Below are positions 4,013 through 44,924 of a stretch of DNA of 64,000 nucleotides, piece after piece. Positions within the stretch are counted from its first letter, which is position 1, and each line of letters opens with the position of its first letter. Origin of the DNA: Pseudomonadota bacterium (GTDB lineage Bacteria; Pseudomonadota; Alphaproteobacteria; Acetobacterales; Acetobacteraceae); contig JAJZFA010000027.1 in assembly GCA_021805565.1 (NCBI GenBank), positions 1-64,000 on the forward strand. Reading direction: 5' to 3'. The notes under the pieces are model-generated. The model ran no database searches. It was not told where the DNA came from and saw only the letters and a list, made by a program, of their open reading frames with translations. The translations under genes and the position numbers were made by a program.

Positions 4013-4335
4013 GCGGCCAATGACAACCTTGCGCGCATCCGGTCGCCGGAAATCCGGGGCGACCTTCGGGTTGATGTCGCGCAGGTCGGCCCGCACCGCG
4101 GGCGGCACACACCGCACCGTCCGTCGCCGAACCCGATTGGGAGAATCGGTAAGGCGCTAAGGCAACGCTGGCAAATAAGTGCGTCAGCACGCCAGCAAAG
4201 TTGCCCTGCAAAACATAAGCTTAGGGCATGGCCTAACGATTGGCTTGACGCCCCGGCATGCCGCGGGCCACGGTAAACGCGAAGCAGTATTCGTCTGAAT
4301 TGAGGTGGCGCGATCCTGCCCCAGGGGGATTTTGG
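4013..4335. other. Intergenic region with dispersed repeat, no gene seen
   Basis: This 323-bp gap lies between two solute-binding-protein genes. It holds one copy of the dispersed hairpin repeat (4157-4230). I see no convincing coding sequence; open frames here lack a ribosome-binding site and recognisable protein content. Confidence 0.6.
4157..4230 (+). repeat. Dispersed intergenic hairpin repeat A, copy 1
   Basis: About 74 bp, nearly identical to the reverse complement of 20342-20415 and related to 43948-44008. Three nested stems can be drawn: outer CTAAG (4157-4161) with CTTAG (4220-4224); GGCAAC with GTTGCC and CTGGC with GCCAG in the middle; and an apical GTGC-GTCA-GCAC hairpin. The tail CTGCAAAACATAAG between the middle stem and the outer arm is also conserved. 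No coding capacity. It looks like a REP-type or small structured element. Confidence 0.8.
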
Positions 4336-5901
4336 ATGAATCGCGAACGTCTTGCCCTGACCGCCGGCGCTATCCTGACACTCGCGTCGGCACATGCCGA
4401 ACCGTTCAAATGTCCGCATACCGGGGGGAATTTTATCTTCGCGCAGGCGGCCAATTTCGCCACCCTGGATCCGATGGCCGCGGGGACGATCTCCACGCGC
4501 AACATCGCGATGAATATTTACGAATCGCTGATGACTCGCGATGAAAATAACCATCCGATCCTGGAACTCGCCGCCGCGATGCATGAGGCGCCCGACCGTC
4601 TGACGTACACCTTTGCGCTGCGCCAGGGTGTCCATTTTCACAACGGCAGGCCATTGACATCGGCCGATGTGGTCGCGTCGTTCGATCGTTACGCGAAACT
4701 GGGCGTACGGCGCAGCACGCTGGAGAATGTGGACCGGTGGGACGCCCCGGATGCACTAACATTCGCGATACACCTTAAGACCGTGCAACCCACATTTATC
4801 GACGCGCTGTCGTCGCCCGATGTGCCCATTGCGATAATGCCCGCCGGCAGCGGCGATCCGTCCGCTCAGCAACCGAATCAGCCAATCGGAACGGGTCCGT
4901 ACCGCTTTGTTTCAGGCTTGCAAGGCGATGAAGTGAAATTGGAACGGTTCGCGGATTATCTGCCCAATAGCAATTTTCAGGAACGGACCGGGTTCGGTGG
5001 TTACAAGCAGGCGTGCTTCGATACGATAACGTTTCGTATCGTGACGGACCCCGATGCCCGCGCCGCCGGCTTGCGCTCCGGCGCCTATCAAGGTGTCGAG
5101 GACCTGACGGCGAAAGCCGCTGGCGATCTGAAGCAGGACGCGGATATCGTCCTGTTGCCTGTGCGCAACTGGTGGATTCAACTGGCGGTCCCGAATGTCT
5201 CCAACCCGCCGACCGACCGGCTTCCGATTCGAAAGGCGATCCAGGCCGCGCTCGATATGCAAGAGATCATGGATGCGGCGTCGGACGGAACATACCGGCT
5301 GAACGCCGGATTTCAGTATCCCGGAGAGCCCGATTACCTCGATGCCGGCAAGCAGACTTATAACCTGCACAATCCGGATCTGGCCCGGCGCTACCTGGCG
5401 GAGGCAGGCTATCAGGGAGAACCCGTCGTTCTGCTGACCAATACGGATTATCCATCCATGTATAATGCCGCGCTGGTCGTACAACAGCAGCTTCAGGCGG
5501 TTGGTATCGATGCCGTCATGAAGGTTGTGGGATGGCCCGCCTCGGCGGAGATGGTCCGGAACACCGCCGAAGGCTGGAACCTCGATTTCACCGCCTGGGG
5601 AACGCAACCCGCGCTGGGTGCGCGAGCAACCATGCAATTACTGGTGCGGCCCAATGCAGCCTATAAGCCGATGGCTGGCCAGGACGACCCGGATCTACGC
5701 TCTGCCTGGAACGATATGAACATGCTGCCAACGCCCGAGGGCCGCAAGGACGCTTTTGCTCGCATGCAAGCGCTGGTTTTGGATCGGGTCTATGCCATTC
5801 CGTTCGGGGTCATGGACACAGTGCAGGCGGTCCGGTCCAACGTGAACGGATTTGTGCCTTTTCGCATCCCTCGCATGGCCAACGTCTGGTTCAGTCCTTG
5901 A
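4336..5901 (+). CDS. ABC transporter solute-binding protein, peptide/nickel type (SBP_bac_5)
   Basis: A 521-residue periplasmic binding protein of the DppA/OppA family. A cleavable signal peptide is visible (MNRERLALTAGAILTLASAHA, cleavage near residue 21). Family signatures include the N-terminal TLDPMAAGTISTRNIAMNIYESL stretch, split here for length, and TYTFALRQGVHFHNGRPLTS around residues 90-110. The ATG at 4336 is preceded by CAGGGGG; a longer reading to 4258 would add a non-signal extension. It stands alone, without permease or ATPase genes, like the solute-binding gene upstream. The substrate could be a peptide, opine, sugar acid or other solute and cannot be decided from the sequence. 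Confidence 0.88.
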   Translation: MNRERLALTAGAILTLASAHAEPFKCPHTGGNFIFAQAANFATLDPMAAGTISTRNIAMNIYESLMTRDENNHPILELAAAMHEAPDRLTYTFALRQGVHFHNGRPLTSADVVASFDRYAKLGVRRSTLENVDRWDAPDALTFAIHLKTVQPTFIDALSSPDVPIAIMPAGSGDPSAQQPNQPIGTGPYRFVSGLQGDEVKLERFADYLPNSNFQERTGFGGYKQACFDTITFRIVTDPDARAAGLRSGAYQGVEDLTAKAAGDLKQDADIVLLPVRNWWIQLAVPNVSNPPTDRLPIRKAIQAALDMQEIMDAASDGTYRLNAGFQYPGEPDYLDAGKQTYNLHNPDLARRYLAEAGYQGEPVVLLTNTDYPSMYNAALVVQQQLQAVGIDAVMKVVGWPASAEMVRNTAEGWNLDFTAWGTQPALGARATMQLLVRPNAAYKPMAGQDDPDLRSAWNDMNMLPTPEGRKDAFARMQALVLDRVYAIPFGVMDTVQAVRSNVNGFVPFRIPRMANVWFSP

Positions 5902-5966
5902 CCGCCCCGGTGTGACAAGCCCGTCCCGCCCCGCTATCGTCCCCGGACGGGACAGGAGAAACGCAC

Positions 5967-6587
5967 ATGATCATCGAAGTTCGCACCTATCAACTCAAGC
6001 CGGGATCGGTGCCCGAGGTGGAAAAACGCTTTGCCGAGTGCCTGCCGGCGCGGGAGAAATTGTCGAAACTGACCGCGCTGTGGCACACCGAAATCGGCCC
6101 GTTGAACGAAATTACCCATGTCTGGACGTACGATAGCTTCGAACAGCGGATGGCTATCCGTGGCGAGGCAGTGAAGTCTGGCGTCTGGCCGCCGCCGATT
6201 GCCGAGTTCATCGTCACCATGCAAAGCGAAATCTTTCTCCCCGCGCCGTTCTCCCCCGCGTTGACGCCGCGCGAGGTGGGGCCGCTGTTCGAGATCAGAT
6301 CCTACTCGATGGCACCGGGGGCGATCCCCGGCACGATCGAACGCTGGGCCGCGAAAATCGATGAACGGGTAAAATTGTCGCCTTTGGTCGGCGCCTGGTA
6401 CACCGAACTCGGCGGGCTAAATAAATGGGTCCATATCTGGGCTTATAAAGACGTCGCCGAACGCCAGCGCATCCGGGCGGAAGCCGTCGCACGTGGCATC
6501 TGGCCCCCGACCGGCGGCGCACCCGGCCAGCTCGTGCGCCAGGAAAACAAGCTGGTCTTGCCGGCATCCTGCTCACCGTTGCGGTAG
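5967..6587 (+). CDS. NIPSNAP-family protein with two tandem domains
   Basis: A 206-residue cytoplasmic protein made of two repeats of the dimeric alpha/beta-barrel NIPSNAP domain. Repeat 1 (about 1-90) opens with IIEVRTYQLKPGSVPEVE and ends in VKSGVWPPP. Repeat 2 (about 108-195) opens with LFEIRSYSMAPGAIPGTIE and ends in VARGIWPPT. Bacterial NIPSNAP proteins often sit in catabolic clusters, but their chemistry is poorly known. AGGAG precedes the ATG by 8 bp. Only 6 bp separate it from the luciferase-like oxidoreductase downstream, so the two are probably co-transcribed and functionally linked. Confidence 0.9.
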   Translation: MIIEVRTYQLKPGSVPEVEKRFAECLPAREKLSKLTALWHTEIGPLNEITHVWTYDSFEQRMAIRGEAVKSGVWPPPIAEFIVTMQSEIFLPAPFSPALTPREVGPLFEIRSYSMAPGAIPGTIERWAAKIDERVKLSPLVGAWYTELGGLNKWVHIWAYKDVAERQRIRAEAVARGIWPPTGGAPGQLVRQENKLVLPASCSPLR

Positions 6588-6593
6588 CGCACC

Positions 6594-7736
6594 ATGAAGG
6601 CCGGAACGGCGATCAGCGTCCTCGCCCAGCCTGGACGTCCAGACGCAGCCCTCTACAACGAACATCTGGCGCTCGGCGATTTGGCGGAACCGCTGGGATT
6701 TGATTCGCTGTTCGCGCTGGAACATCACTTCACCGGCTATTCCATGTCGCCCGCGCCGCTGCAACTGCTCAGCTATTATGCCGGGCGCACGAAACGTATC
6801 GTGCTTGGCACCTGCGTCATCGTGCTGCCCTGGCACGACCCTATCCGCGTGGCGGAGCAGATCGCGCTGCTGGATGTCATCAGCGGCGGCCGCACCCTGA
6901 TCGGGTTCGGCCGTGGCGCCGCCAGCATCGAATATGCCGGATTCCGCATTCCCATGGAGGAAGCCCGGCCGCGATTCGTGGAAGCGGCGCAACTGGTCAT
7001 AAAGGCACTGAGCGAAGAATCCTTCGAATGGAACGGGGAATTCTACAAAATTCCCCACGTATCGATCCGGCCCCGGCCTATATCGAATCCGGAACGGCGA
7101 TTCCACGCATCCTCGGTCAGCCCCGAATCCGCCGAAGTCATGGCAAAGCTCGGTTTTGGGATGCTGATCGTCATGCAGAACGAATGGCCGAAAGCGGCGG
7201 AAGATGTGCACCGGTACCGCGCGATGGTGCAAAGCGTCGGACACACGCCGCGGCCGCCGATTATCCTGACCAACGTGGCCTGCGCGCCAACACGCGCCGA
7301 AGCCCGCGAGTGGGCCGCGCGCTATCTGAGCGAGAAGTGGGATTCCATCGATAATCACTACCATTTTTCGGATGGCCATTTGGGTACCGTGAAAGGATAC
7401 GAATCGTACGGCAAACTCGCGAAAACCTACACCAAGATGAAGGATGAGACCTTCCGGAACAAGGCAACCGATTTTTATCTGAGCATTCAGATCGTCGGCA
7501 CCCCGGATGATTGCATTCAGCAGATCGCCGAGTTGCGGCGCCTGACCGGCACGGATCATCTGGTGACGGAGTTTTCGTTTGGCAGCATGCCGCATCATCT
7601 GGCCGAACTGAACATGCGGCTGTTCGCCGGAAATGTGCTGCCTGTATTGCAAAGGGATCCGGCCTTTCAGGGCATTGTCGATCCGGTTCCGGAAGAAACG
7701 CGGGCGGGCGACGACCGGCTGTTCGCGCCGGCCTGA
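6594..7736 (+). CDS. Luciferase-like (LLM-class) flavin-dependent oxidoreductase
   Basis: A 380-residue TIM-barrel protein of the bacterial luciferase superfamily. Typical features are the N-terminal LGDLAEPLGFDSLFALEHHF, the LGTCVIVLPWHDPIRVAEQI strand-helix and the SGGRTLIGFGRG flavin-contacting loop (around residues 98-109). Members use FMNH2 or F420 to oxidise or cleave small organic substrates. It lies 6 bp after the NIPSNAP gene, suggesting one unit, and ends the plus-strand group that starts with the thiolase. The cofactor cannot be chosen from these residues, and no F420 biosynthesis genes are in the window. Confidence 0.88.
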   Translation: MKAGTAISVLAQPGRPDAALYNEHLALGDLAEPLGFDSLFALEHHFTGYSMSPAPLQLLSYYAGRTKRIVLGTCVIVLPWHDPIRVAEQIALLDVISGGRTLIGFGRGAASIEYAGFRIPMEEARPRFVEAAQLVIKALSEESFEWNGEFYKIPHVSIRPRPISNPERRFHASSVSPESAEVMAKLGFGMLIVMQNEWPKAAEDVHRYRAMVQSVGHTPRPPIILTNVACAPTRAEAREWAARYLSEKWDSIDNHYHFSDGHLGTVKGYESYGKLAKTYTKMKDETFRNKATDFYLSIQIVGTPDDCIQQIAELRRLTGTDHLVTEFSFGSMPHHLAELNMRLFAGNVLPVLQRDPAFQGIVDPVPEETRAGDDRLFAPA

Positions 7737-7825: not shown

Positions 7826-9583
7826 CTACTTCGCGCGGTCGGCCTCGAACAGCGCCATCAATTCCTCGGTCGCCTGTTGCACACTTTGCATCAATTGTTT
7901 CTCATCCCGGTAGATTACGTGCGTATCCAGCAGTGTCCGTTCATCGTGATCCCGGAACAACGCGATCGACCGTTCGGCTTCCTGGGTGGAAACGCCCAAC
8001 GCCTCCAGCGCCTGTCGAGCCATTTTCAGGCTTGAATGAAACGTCTCCCGCACCAGGCCATCGACGCCGCGGTCCATCAGCAGATACGCGTTGCGCCGGT
8101 TGCGAGCCCGCGCCAGGATTTTCAGGTGCGGGAAATTCCGTTTCGCCACTTCGACAATCCGCAGCACGTCCGGCGCGTTGTCGAGCGCGACAATCAGCAG
8201 CTTCGCCTGTCCGGCCCCCGCCGCGCGCAGCAAATCGATGCGGGTCGGATCGCCGAAATAGACCTTGATGCCGAAGCGCCGCAGCACATCCACCTGACCG
8301 GGGTCGCGTTCCAGCGCGGTGAATGTAATCCCGTGCATCCGCAGCACACGCGCAACGATCTGCCCGAACCGACCGACGCCGCACAGGATTACAGGCGCGT
8401 CGGCGGCCTCGATCGTATCGAAATCCGGTTCTGGCTCCTGTTCAAGGCATGGAATCAGGAACCGTTCCGACACCGCGAACAACACCGGTGTCGCGGCCAT
8501 GGACGCCGCGGCGACCAGCGTTGCCAGCGCGGCGCTGCCGGGCGACAGCGCGCCCGCCGCCACCGCCGCGCCGAACAGTACGAAGGCGAATTCGCTGGCC
8601 TGCGGCAGTGCCAGGCTGAACCGAACCGCATCCGCCAGGCTTTGCCGGGCGATCAGGGCCAGGATGAAACAGACCGCCGCCTTCGCCGTCAGCAGTGCCG
8701 CCACGGCCCCGGCCAGCAAACCCGGATGTACCCGCGCCAGCCCCAGATCCGCCGCCATGCCGACCGAGATGAAGAAGAAGCCCAGCAACAGGCCCTCGAA
8801 CGGAGCGATGTCCGCCTGCAATTCGTGGCGGTATTCGGATTCGGACAGTAAAACCCCGGCCATGAAGGCACCGAGCGACATGGACAATCCGGCGATGCTG
8901 GCGATGAAGGCGGAGCCGGCGACGATCAGCAACGATGCCAGCGTAAACAGTTCAGGCGTGCGGGCGCCCCCCAGCGCCCGGATCAACGGCGGAATGGCGA
9001 AGCGGCCGCCGACCAGGATCACCGCTATGGCCGTCACGGCCCTGGCCACATCGTGCCACGGAACCTGATGGGGCAGGGTGTGTTCCGCGAGTAACGGGAC
9101 GATGGCGACCAGGGGAATGAACGCCAGATCCTGAAACAACAGGACCGCGAAGCCGTCGCGCCCGGCCGAACTTTGCATCAGTCCGGCCTCGGCCAGCATT
9201 GGCAGCACGATGGCGGTGGACGACATCGCCAGACCGGCGCCCAGGACAATGCTTCCCATCCACGACACGCCGGTCCAGCGGGCCAACGCCGCCAATACAA
9301 TGCCGCTGAACACGACCTGCGCCGAACCAAGCCCGAACACCGCGCGCCGCATGACCCAAAGCCGCCTGGGCCGCAGTTCCAGCCCAATCAGGAACAGCAG
9401 CATGACCACGCCGAGGGACGCGATATCGGCGATCTGGCCGATATCGCTGACCAGCCCCAGGCCGGACGGCCCGATCGCCACCCCCGCGAGCAGATAACCC
9501 AGCACGCTGCCAAGGCCGAACCGTCGGGTCAGCGGTACCGCGACAGTCGCGGCGGCGAGCAACGCGACAAGAGTCGTCAGCAT
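7826..9583 (-). CDS. Kef-family monovalent cation:proton antiporter (CPA2) with RCK domain
   Basis: A 585-residue inner-membrane protein. Residues 1-385 form the multi-span Na+/H+ exchanger domain, with an N-terminal TM that starts LTTLVALLAAATVAVPL. Residues about 398-520 form a cytosolic RCK/TrkA-N nucleotide-binding domain with the Rossmann motif VGRFGQ. Family function is K+ (or Na+) efflux in exchange for H+, gated by ligands such as glutathione adducts in KefB/KefC. The start is fixed by a TGATG overlap with the upstream dehydrogenase gene, whose stop shares one base with this ATG. The pairing with a 2-hydroxyacid dehydrogenase is unusual; KefC partners are normally quinone reductases. 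Confidence 0.92.
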   Translation of the reverse strand: MLTTLVALLAAATVAVPLTRRFGLGSVLGYLLAGVAIGPSGLGLVSDIGQIADIASLGVVMLLFLIGLELRPRRLWVMRRAVFGLGSAQVVFSGIVLAALARWTGVSWMGSIVLGAGLAMSSTAIVLPMLAEAGLMQSSAGRDGFAVLLFQDLAFIPLVAIVPLLAEHTLPHQVPWHDVARAVTAIAVILVGGRFAIPPLIRALGGARTPELFTLASLLIVAGSAFIASIAGLSMSLGAFMAGVLLSESEYRHELQADIAPFEGLLLGFFFISVGMAADLGLARVHPGLLAGAVAALLTAKAAVCFILALIARQSLADAVRFSLALPQASEFAFVLFGAAVAAGALSPGSAALATLVAAASMAATPVLFAVSERFLIPCLEQEPEPDFDTIEAADAPVILCGVGRFGQIVARVLRMHGITFTALERDPGQVDVLRRFGIKVYFGDPTRIDLLRAAGAGQAKLLIVALDNAPDVLRIVEVAKRNFPHLKILARARNRRNAYLLMDRGVDGLVRETFHSSLKMARQALEALGVSTQEAERSIALFRDHDERTLLDTHVIYRDEKQLMQSVQQATEELMALFEADRAK

Positions 9584-44069: not shown

Positions 44070-44924
44070 ATGAAAATTGGCGCCGTCATGTTCTTTACCG
44101 CCGACTCGATGCAGCCGGCCGCGTTGGGCCGGGCGCTGGAACAGCGCGGGTTCGAGTCGTTGTGGGTGCCGGAGCATACCCATGTCCCCTCGACCCGGAC
44201 GACACCCTATGTCGGCGGCGGTCCCCTGCCCCGGCCATACTATGACATCTACGATCCCTTTCTGGCGCTGACCGCGGTTGCGGCAGCGACCGAGACTCTG
44301 AAAATTGGCACCGGTATCGCCCTGGTGGTGCAGCGCGATCCGATCGTGACCGCGAAAATGGTTTCGACGATCGACCAACTGTCCCAAGGCCGATTTCTGT
44401 TCGGAGTCGGCAACGGCTGGAACCGCGACGAGATCGAAAATCACGGCACCTCCTTCCCCACACGCAACAAACTCGCTCGGGAACGGATCGAGGCGATGCA
44501 AACGATCTGGACTCAGGACGAACCATCGTTCGATGGCGAATTTGTCAAATTCGGCCCCATGAGCCAGTGGCCAAAGCCGTTTCAGAAGCCGTATCCTCCG
44601 ATCATTGTCGGCGGTGCGTTCCCACACGCGGCGAAGCGGGCGATCCGTTACGGCAACGGCTGGATTCCGCGCGCCGACCGGCTGGAACACGACGGGGTCG
44701 GCGTCGTCATCGGACGCTTCCGCGCGATGGCAACCGAGGCCGGGCGCGACCCGGCATCCCTGCCGATCAGCATATTCCGCGTGCCGGACGACCTGACCAA
44801 ACTCAGATTTTGCCAGGAAATCGGCGTCGATCGGGTCGTTTTCAGCCTGCCCGCCGGCGACGCGGAGACAATCTTGCCGATCCTGGACCGGTGGGTACGG
44901 GTCAGGCAGGACCTTGGATACTGA
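44070..44924 (+). CDS. LLM-class flavin-dependent oxidoreductase
   Basis: A 284-residue member of the luciferase-like superfamily, shorter than the one at 6.6 kb and of a different subgroup. It opens with KIGAVMFFTADSMQPAALG; LWVPEHTHVP, ALVVQRDPIVTAKMVSTIDQ and GRFLFGVGNGWNRDEIENHG (about 111-130) are family hallmarks. AAGGA lies 9 bp upstream of the ATG. The cofactor could be F420 or FMN, and the substrate is unknown. It stands alone behind a repeat element. Confidence 0.88.
   Translation: MKIGAVMFFTADSMQPAALGRALEQRGFESLWVPEHTHVPSTRTTPYVGGGPLPRPYYDIYDPFLALTAVAAATETLKIGTGIALVVQRDPIVTAKMVSTIDQLSQGRFLFGVGNGWNRDEIENHGTSFPTRNKLARERIEAMQTIWTQDEPSFDGEFVKFGPMSQWPKPFQKPYPPIIVGGAFPHAAKRAIRYGNGWIPRADRLEHDGVGVVIGRFRAMATEAGRDPASLPISIFRVPDDLTKLRFCQEIGVDRVVFSLPAGDAETILPILDRWVRVRQDLGY

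Follow-up and report, generated by a model that had tools for sequence, protein, structure and literature searches.

NIPSNAP domains form a widespread family that includes human members. Solved single-domain members (2ap6 and 1vqs, Atu4242; 1vqy, Atu5224; 5ixu, 5kak and 5k9f) carry titles without an assigned function. According to the passages available from the papers concerned, NipSnap has been counted as a eukaryotic-like domain (PMC12993501), a NIPSNAP gene appears in expression tables with no tested activity (PMC4201530, PMC5557065), and a NIPSNAP family gene with a putative role only lies in the riboflavin synthesis operon of Aeromonas salmonicida, which is another tie between NIPSNAP and flavin (PMC10012899). 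Searches for literature joining NIPSNAP with luciferase-like, or with dimeric alpha-beta barrel, found none, with most subscription journals outside the search. Searches joining it with gene cluster and degradation, operon, flavin (best 20 of 23) or dioxygenase gave no bacterial activity in titles and abstract openings. The preliminary description of the DNA analysed here had stated that tandem NIPSNAP proteins have no assigned chemistry, and the titles, abstract openings and passages searched agree with it in containing no tested activity of a bacterial NIPSNAP.

The window, as the whole stretch of 64,000 nucleotides is called below, comes from a member of the Acetobacteraceae and encodes a tandem NIPSNAP protein ahead of a luciferase-like (LLM) flavin oxidoreductase. 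Each of the solved single-domain NIPSNAP structures matches one half of this protein, in sequence as well as in fold (rmsd 1.5-2.3 over about 102 columns); they have one domain per chain, whereas the window protein has two fused.

The gene pair and its products

The features of the locus are listed in Table 1.

Table 1. Features of the NIPSNAP-LLM locus in the window
Feature	Coordinates	Strand	Length and basis
Family-5 solute-binding protein, peptide/nickel-type ABC transporter	4336..5901	+	PF00496; start as given by the gene caller, longest ORF begins at 4258
AGGAG, ribosome-binding-like site ahead of the NIPSNAP ATG	5954..5958	+	Read from sequence
Tandem NIPSNAP gene	5967..6587	+	206 aa, ATG; ORF, PF07978 in two stretches, AlphaFold (AF2) model
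NIPSNAP domain 1	5976..6257	+	PF07978, 82.8 bits (genome profile search)
NIPSNAP domain 2	6288..6578	+	PF07978, 77.2 bits (genome profile search)
Spacer from NIPSNAP stop to LLM start, without a Shine-Dalgarno-like run	6588..6593	+	6 bp; read from sequence
LLM (luciferase-like) flavin oxidoreductase gene	6594..7736	+	380 aa, ATG; PF00296, nearest solved chains 8cbb and 7bip, orthologues

The two open reading frames lie on the same strand in one common reading frame, 6 bp apart. The first matches PF07978 in two stretches (E 1.8e-46, 157 bits; gathering score 22.3 bits) and the second PF00296, Bac_luciferase (E 3.4e-62, 211 bits; gathering score 27.9 bits). Neither is a chance reading frame, since dN is far below dS in six relatives (0.11-0.24 against about 1.0-1.7 for the NIPSNAP, 0.06-0.13 against about 1.1-1.6 for the LLM). 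The halves of the NIPSNAP protein align with 39% identity over 98 columns (E 1e-26). The reading frames, the Pfam matches and this alignment bear out the initial call of a duplicated NIPSNAP 6 bp before an LLM gene. The AGGAG ahead of the NIPSNAP start, with no such run in the gap before the LLM, would fit coupled translation of the pair, although weakly, because such a run does precede the LLM gene in several relatives. Promoter-like and terminator-like matches around the operon were at or below chance level.

The WPPP and WPPT motifs, which had been placed at the ends of the repeats, do occupy equivalent places (residues 74-77 and 179-182) but stand before the last strand and not at the end. 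The AlphaFold model, made from an alignment of 62 sequences, has a mean pLDDT of 93.7 and a pTM of 0.89 and consists of two ferredoxin-like repeats; by Foldseek comparison to 5ixu, 2ap6 and 5kak this predicted fold is the ferredoxin-like alpha/beta fold of the solved NIPSNAP proteins. These and other single NIPSNAP structures match one half, and two-domain proteins match the whole chain, namely 2pgc (TM 0.72 by query length), 3mcs, 3f44, the chlorite dismutase-like 3dtz and the coproheme decarboxylase 9mhr. The built-in pseudo-dimer of the preliminary description is supported, as a model, by the AlphaFold prediction and by both kinds of match. From a viral fold library, the single good match over the whole chain was a giant-virus antibiotic-biosynthesis monooxygenase (TM 0.71, 7% identity).

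Among 62 sequences from the wider clade of the window protein, nine positions that correspond between the two halves show no variation in either half: E4/E109, R6/R111, Y8/Y113, R29/R134, G44/G149, N47/N152, H51/H156, W53/W158 and Y55/Y160. These residues probably line a pocket, and from the sequence neither of the two predicted pockets looks abandoned in the window protein. In the five sampled members of a distant tandem lineage of the genus, lineage C, G149 is the only one of these residues that is not kept. In another tandem lineage two members (L082, L083) retain most of the residues in their second half, whereas the first half has lost the majority. A tree of 102 domains (30 single domains and 36 from each half) mostly separates first from second halves, which indicates that the duplication is old; the tree is compatible with one duplication or with two.

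The nearest solved chains to the LLM are 8cbb, titled as an alkanal monooxygenase alpha chain (150 bits), and 7bip, which we take to be RslO1 (123.7 bits). Among the best 25 of 31 matches, the LLM stays below every NCBIfam subfamily cut-off: it scores 118 bits against 600 for bacterial luciferase alpha (NF052254), 86.9 against 412.9 for TIGR04027 (KPN_01858) and 81.6 against 468.5 for TIGR04028 (KPN_01854), the last two being LLM/SBP families. For the F420-dependent LLM class (TIGR03619) the score is 112.9 against 166.9. Dependence on F420 is not claimed for this LLM, as the F420 subfamily cut-offs are unreached among those matches despite two F420-related genes elsewhere in the genome. These genes, in a separately fetched segment (L305, G000:C58:176000-190000), encode CofD (6392-7357; TIGR01819, 304 bits against a cut-off of 257) and, one gene away, an F420-dependent glucose-6-phosphate dehydrogenase (8120-9124; TIGR03554, 479 against 420), and their proximity suggests that the organism probably makes and uses F420. 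A predicted LLM structure from a 7-row alignment (mean pLDDT 44.1) was left out of the analysis. The window's genome (G000) contains 49 PF00296 matches in 4.5 Mb, which was judged many and raises the probability of chance adjacency to an LLM. A second LLM gene lies inside the window at 44070-44924.

Linkage and operon layouts within the genus

Linkage was scored when an LLM gene lay on the same strand at a distance below 1.5 kb. Near relatives have record titles of Rhodopila, Acidisphaera or Acetobacteraceae. Of the 59 genomes searched, own genome counted, 35 contain a NIPSNAP match; for relatives of the locus, the best 80 of 494 were kept, and among their 81 tandem ORFs 25 are LLM-linked. An orthologue of the LLM (at least 81% identity) is present in 23 of 33 genomes of the genus, again with the own genome counted, and in none of the other ten. 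One of the 23 (G005, L301) was excluded from the linkage count as a contig end cuts the locus. In 21 of the 22 judgeable genomes a tandem NIPSNAP lies upstream of the orthologue on the same strand, either adjacent or separated from it by a single gene. The outcome named beforehand as speaking against the pairing, a linkage not conserved in related genomes, therefore did not arise in the genus. The exception (G021, L300) has the LLM and no NIPSNAP in 14 kb by profile search of all ORFs. The outer neighbours of the pair fall into at least five different sets, and this, together with dS values of about 1.0-1.7, makes a lack of time to rearrange an unlikely cause of the linkage. Of 19 LLM paralogues at 62-72% identity, loci were fetched for 10, and none of these contains a NIPSNAP; the rough chance expectation of LLM adjacency from LLM density is 2.5%.

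Three layouts were found, with LigB, M20 and VOC families typed by Pfam from one member each and the other LigB members by blast cluster and profile. In layout (a) a binding protein, two permeases and two ATPases precede NIPSNAP and LLM (L093-L095; the contig of L096 starts within the second permease), and a VOC (glyoxalase) gene lies downstream. The window and L091 keep the binding protein alone, the two permeases and two ATPases being absent from the window. Layout (b), at ten loci, has the order NIPSNAP, LigB, LLM, and an M20 dipeptidase then follows the LLM in four of them. Layout (c) consists of NIPSNAP and LLM without transporter or LigB (L103, L105-L107). The LigB gene is found in relatives and is absent from the window; the member in L044 matches PF02900 with 52.1 bits (gathering score 26.3). 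LigB and the ABC transporter are each limited to part of the genus. Further upstream in the window, at 1113-2692, a thiolase-like gene is followed by a ChsH2-type zinc-ribbon/OB gene, with two solute-binding proteins just downstream; such an arrangement is known from steroid side-chain aldolases. The thiolase and ChsH2-like pair was not counted with the unit, being found in only one of 60 loci (L048), 7-8 kb from the NIPSNAP.

A second tandem NIPSNAP, with 60-66% identity to the first type, is also present in 14 of 18 genus genomes with the first type and usually stands without an LLM. Three genomes (G004, G007, G027) lack the first type. The gene ahead of LigB and LLM in these is 62-63% identical to the window NIPSNAP, and their LLMs are 81-84% identical to that of the window. 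Among the 112 tandem proteins placed in a tree, those of G007 and G027 lie within the second lineage, with the G004 protein as sister to it. This tree was built by a quick method, its support values are SH-aLRT only, and it leaves open the fork at which some of the operon branch joins the second paralogue. The simplest reading of these sequences is in-place replacement or gene conversion at the NIPSNAP slot, with the direction of the swap a matter of inference; it suggests that a NIPSNAP is required by the LLM operon. One gene of the second lineage (L143) has a different LLM 78 bp upstream.

Tandem NIPSNAP genes in other lineages

The tandem NIPSNAP of lineage C is about 30% identical to that of the window and has a same-strand LLM within 1.5 kb at all 13 genus loci. 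An LLM of one cluster lies directly upstream at 12 of them (the L079 member was typed to the NtaA/DmoA family), an LLM of another cluster directly downstream at 11 (the L079 member was typed to the Rv3520c family), and a third LLM is present at nine, with TauD and SDR genes near. The downstream part of this arrangement recurs in L359, which is from outside the genus.

Among the 112 tandem proteins of the tree, 39 are LLM-linked, 59 are unlinked and 14 were left unscored for too little flank; L139, called as a single domain, was left out. The linkage label is clustered, as it requires 8 changes on the tree against 32.6 with shuffled labels. An LLM lies directly downstream of the tandem NIPSNAP in L149 and L154, and L165 (titled Reyranella) has an LLM upstream and TauD with a second LLM downstream. 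A pair from Dehalococcoidia (L169), counted among the 39 linked rows, was not used as operon evidence because a terminator-like hairpin separates its two genes.

Samples were also drawn from the phylum, class and family, with the best few candidates per genome scored. In the phylum sample of 398 genomes, with about 5-8 kb inspected on each side, no LLM was found near a tandem NIPSNAP at 12 loci outside the own genome. In the class and family samples 54 of the matches yielded a tandem locus for inspection, with a same-strand LLM within about 1.5 kb in three and an opposite-strand LLM in two; one locus is from the window's genus (L340), one repeats L083 (L349), and eight were counted with clipped flanks (L334, L339, L343, L344, L346, L350, L354, L357). 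As a control, single-domain NIPSNAP genes had a same-strand LLM within 1.5 kb at none of 28 fetched loci, three of which have less than 1.5 kb on one side (L246, L249, L255); near-misses were a same-strand LLM at 1,501 bp (L264) and an opposite-strand LLM close by (L248). The survey of co-occurrence of double NIPSNAP and LLM genes that the preliminary description had called for thus found the pairing conserved in the genus but rare in the phylum, class and family samples. Linkage as a general rule for tandem NIPSNAPs is rejected on these counts (0/12 and 3/54), and its suggested value as a clue to tandem NIPSNAP chemistry holds for this operon and not for tandem NIPSNAPs at large.

Other surroundings were seen in these samples. 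In the lineage that includes L082 and L083, the gene before the NIPSNAP comes from one blast cluster at four of eight loci of the phylum sample (L234, L235, L237, L238), and its L234 member is a KstD-like FAD_binding_2 protein. Two tandem NIPSNAP genes in a row, with four domains, occur in records titled SAR202 and Dehalococcoidia (L152, 4566-5930; L162, 7441-8802). In Binatia and Deltaproteobacteria (L151, L153, L155-L158, L160) the NIPSNAP follows a very long ORF with ABC-ATPase similarity (1,890 aa in L157, 1,958 aa in L153).

Proposed role and comparison with known systems

With moderate confidence, the pair is read as the core of a catabolic operon specific to this lineage of Acetobacteraceae, where the tandem NIPSNAP, with both pockets kept, would be an accessory enzyme of the LLM reaction. 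The peptide-type ABC transporter, present in part of the genus and reduced to the binding protein in the window, would import an organic compound, and the LLM, presumably co-transcribed with the NIPSNAP, would oxidise it with reduced flavin (probably FMN) and oxygen. The tandem NIPSNAP, as a predicted one-chain pseudo-dimeric alpha/beta-barrel, may convert the substrate or product of the LLM by acid-base chemistry, acting as an isomerase, tautomerase or cofactor-free oxygenase. Where a LigB-type extradiol dioxygenase is encoded between the two, it could then cleave a ring.

The catabolic-operon reading is favoured by linkage in 21 of 22 genomes amid at least five sets of outer neighbours, by the transporter genes upstream (L093-L096), LigB in ten loci and the M20 dipeptidase in four, by the occupation of one slot by NIPSNAPs of two branches, by the constant LLM linkage of lineage C (13/13), and by the nine residues invariant in both halves, with controls at 0/28 and 0/10 and a rough chance expectation of 2.5% from LLM density. 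Against it stand the tandem NIPSNAPs outside the genus, most of which have no LLM (0/12; 51 of 54 without one on the same strand), the LLM alone in G021, the ten genomes without an orthologue and the usually LLM-free second paralogue. The patchy distribution of LigB and transporter, the LLM-rich genome, the loss of one pocket's residues in L082 and L083, the hairpin in L169 and the absence of a catalytic activity of a bacterial NIPSNAP from the literature searched also count against it.

The upstream position and conserved pairing would likewise suit a non-catalytic NIPSNAP that either docks on the LLM or binds its substrate, product or flavin, and that shields a reactive intermediate or passes it on. 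A carrier would explain two NIPSNAP branches in one slot as well as an enzyme does, and the solved NIPSNAP entries listed have no function name; nine mostly polar or aromatic invariant positions in both halves, however, are seemingly more than docking requires, and tandem relatives elsewhere mostly lack an LLM, which leaves such a partner somewhat unlikely. It is unlikely that the genes are independent, with a separate general function for the NIPSNAP and the transcript alone in common with the LLM in this lineage. The LLM-free second paralogue, the mostly LLM-free tandem relatives in varied surroundings and the one genus genome with the LLM alone would fit independence, but the pair is retained in 21 of 22 judgeable genomes though its outer neighbourhood changed, NIPSNAPs of two branches share the slot, and a second tandem lineage of the same genus is found with LLMs. 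Foldseek matches to the putative monooxygenases 3mcs and 3f44, the anthrone oxidase-like 5f9p, the coproheme decarboxylase 9mhr and the haem-bound HmoB 4fvc raise the further idea of a cofactor-free or haem-using oxygenase of anthrone-oxidase or coproheme-decarboxylase type, making a quinone or phenol for the LLM or LigB. This is quite improbable, as identity in these matches is 6-12% and the fold is common to many activities.

More broadly, and with considerable doubt, tandem NIPSNAPs might be partner enzymes that can be recruited by flavin-dependent oxidoreductases where cyclic compounds are broken down, these oxidoreductases being LLMs in two separate lineages of the genus and in scattered cases elsewhere, and KstD-like FAD dehydrogenases in one other lineage. 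If true, the NIPSNAP family would thereby gain a first chemistry in bacteria. The pairing in the genus hints at a joint role in the breakdown of an organic compound, and a conserved partner that is a defined oxygenase, sometimes accompanied by a ring-cleaving dioxygenase and an uptake system, offers a concrete assay for the step that the NIPSNAP would add.

The tie considered here between the window protein and the eukaryotic mitochondrial NIPSNAP1-4 is the shared name of the domain. The two-domain barrel proteins that it resembles in fold over the whole chain (2pgc, from a marine metagenome, 3mcs, 3f44, 3dtz and 9mhr) have 8-12% identity to it and are absent from the sequence-search matches. 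For the LLM, a described case for comparison is that of progesterone degradation in Caenibius tardaugens: NIPSNAP does not occur in that text, and the enzyme is a catabolic LLM encoded in a small bacterial gene cluster (PMC12239570).
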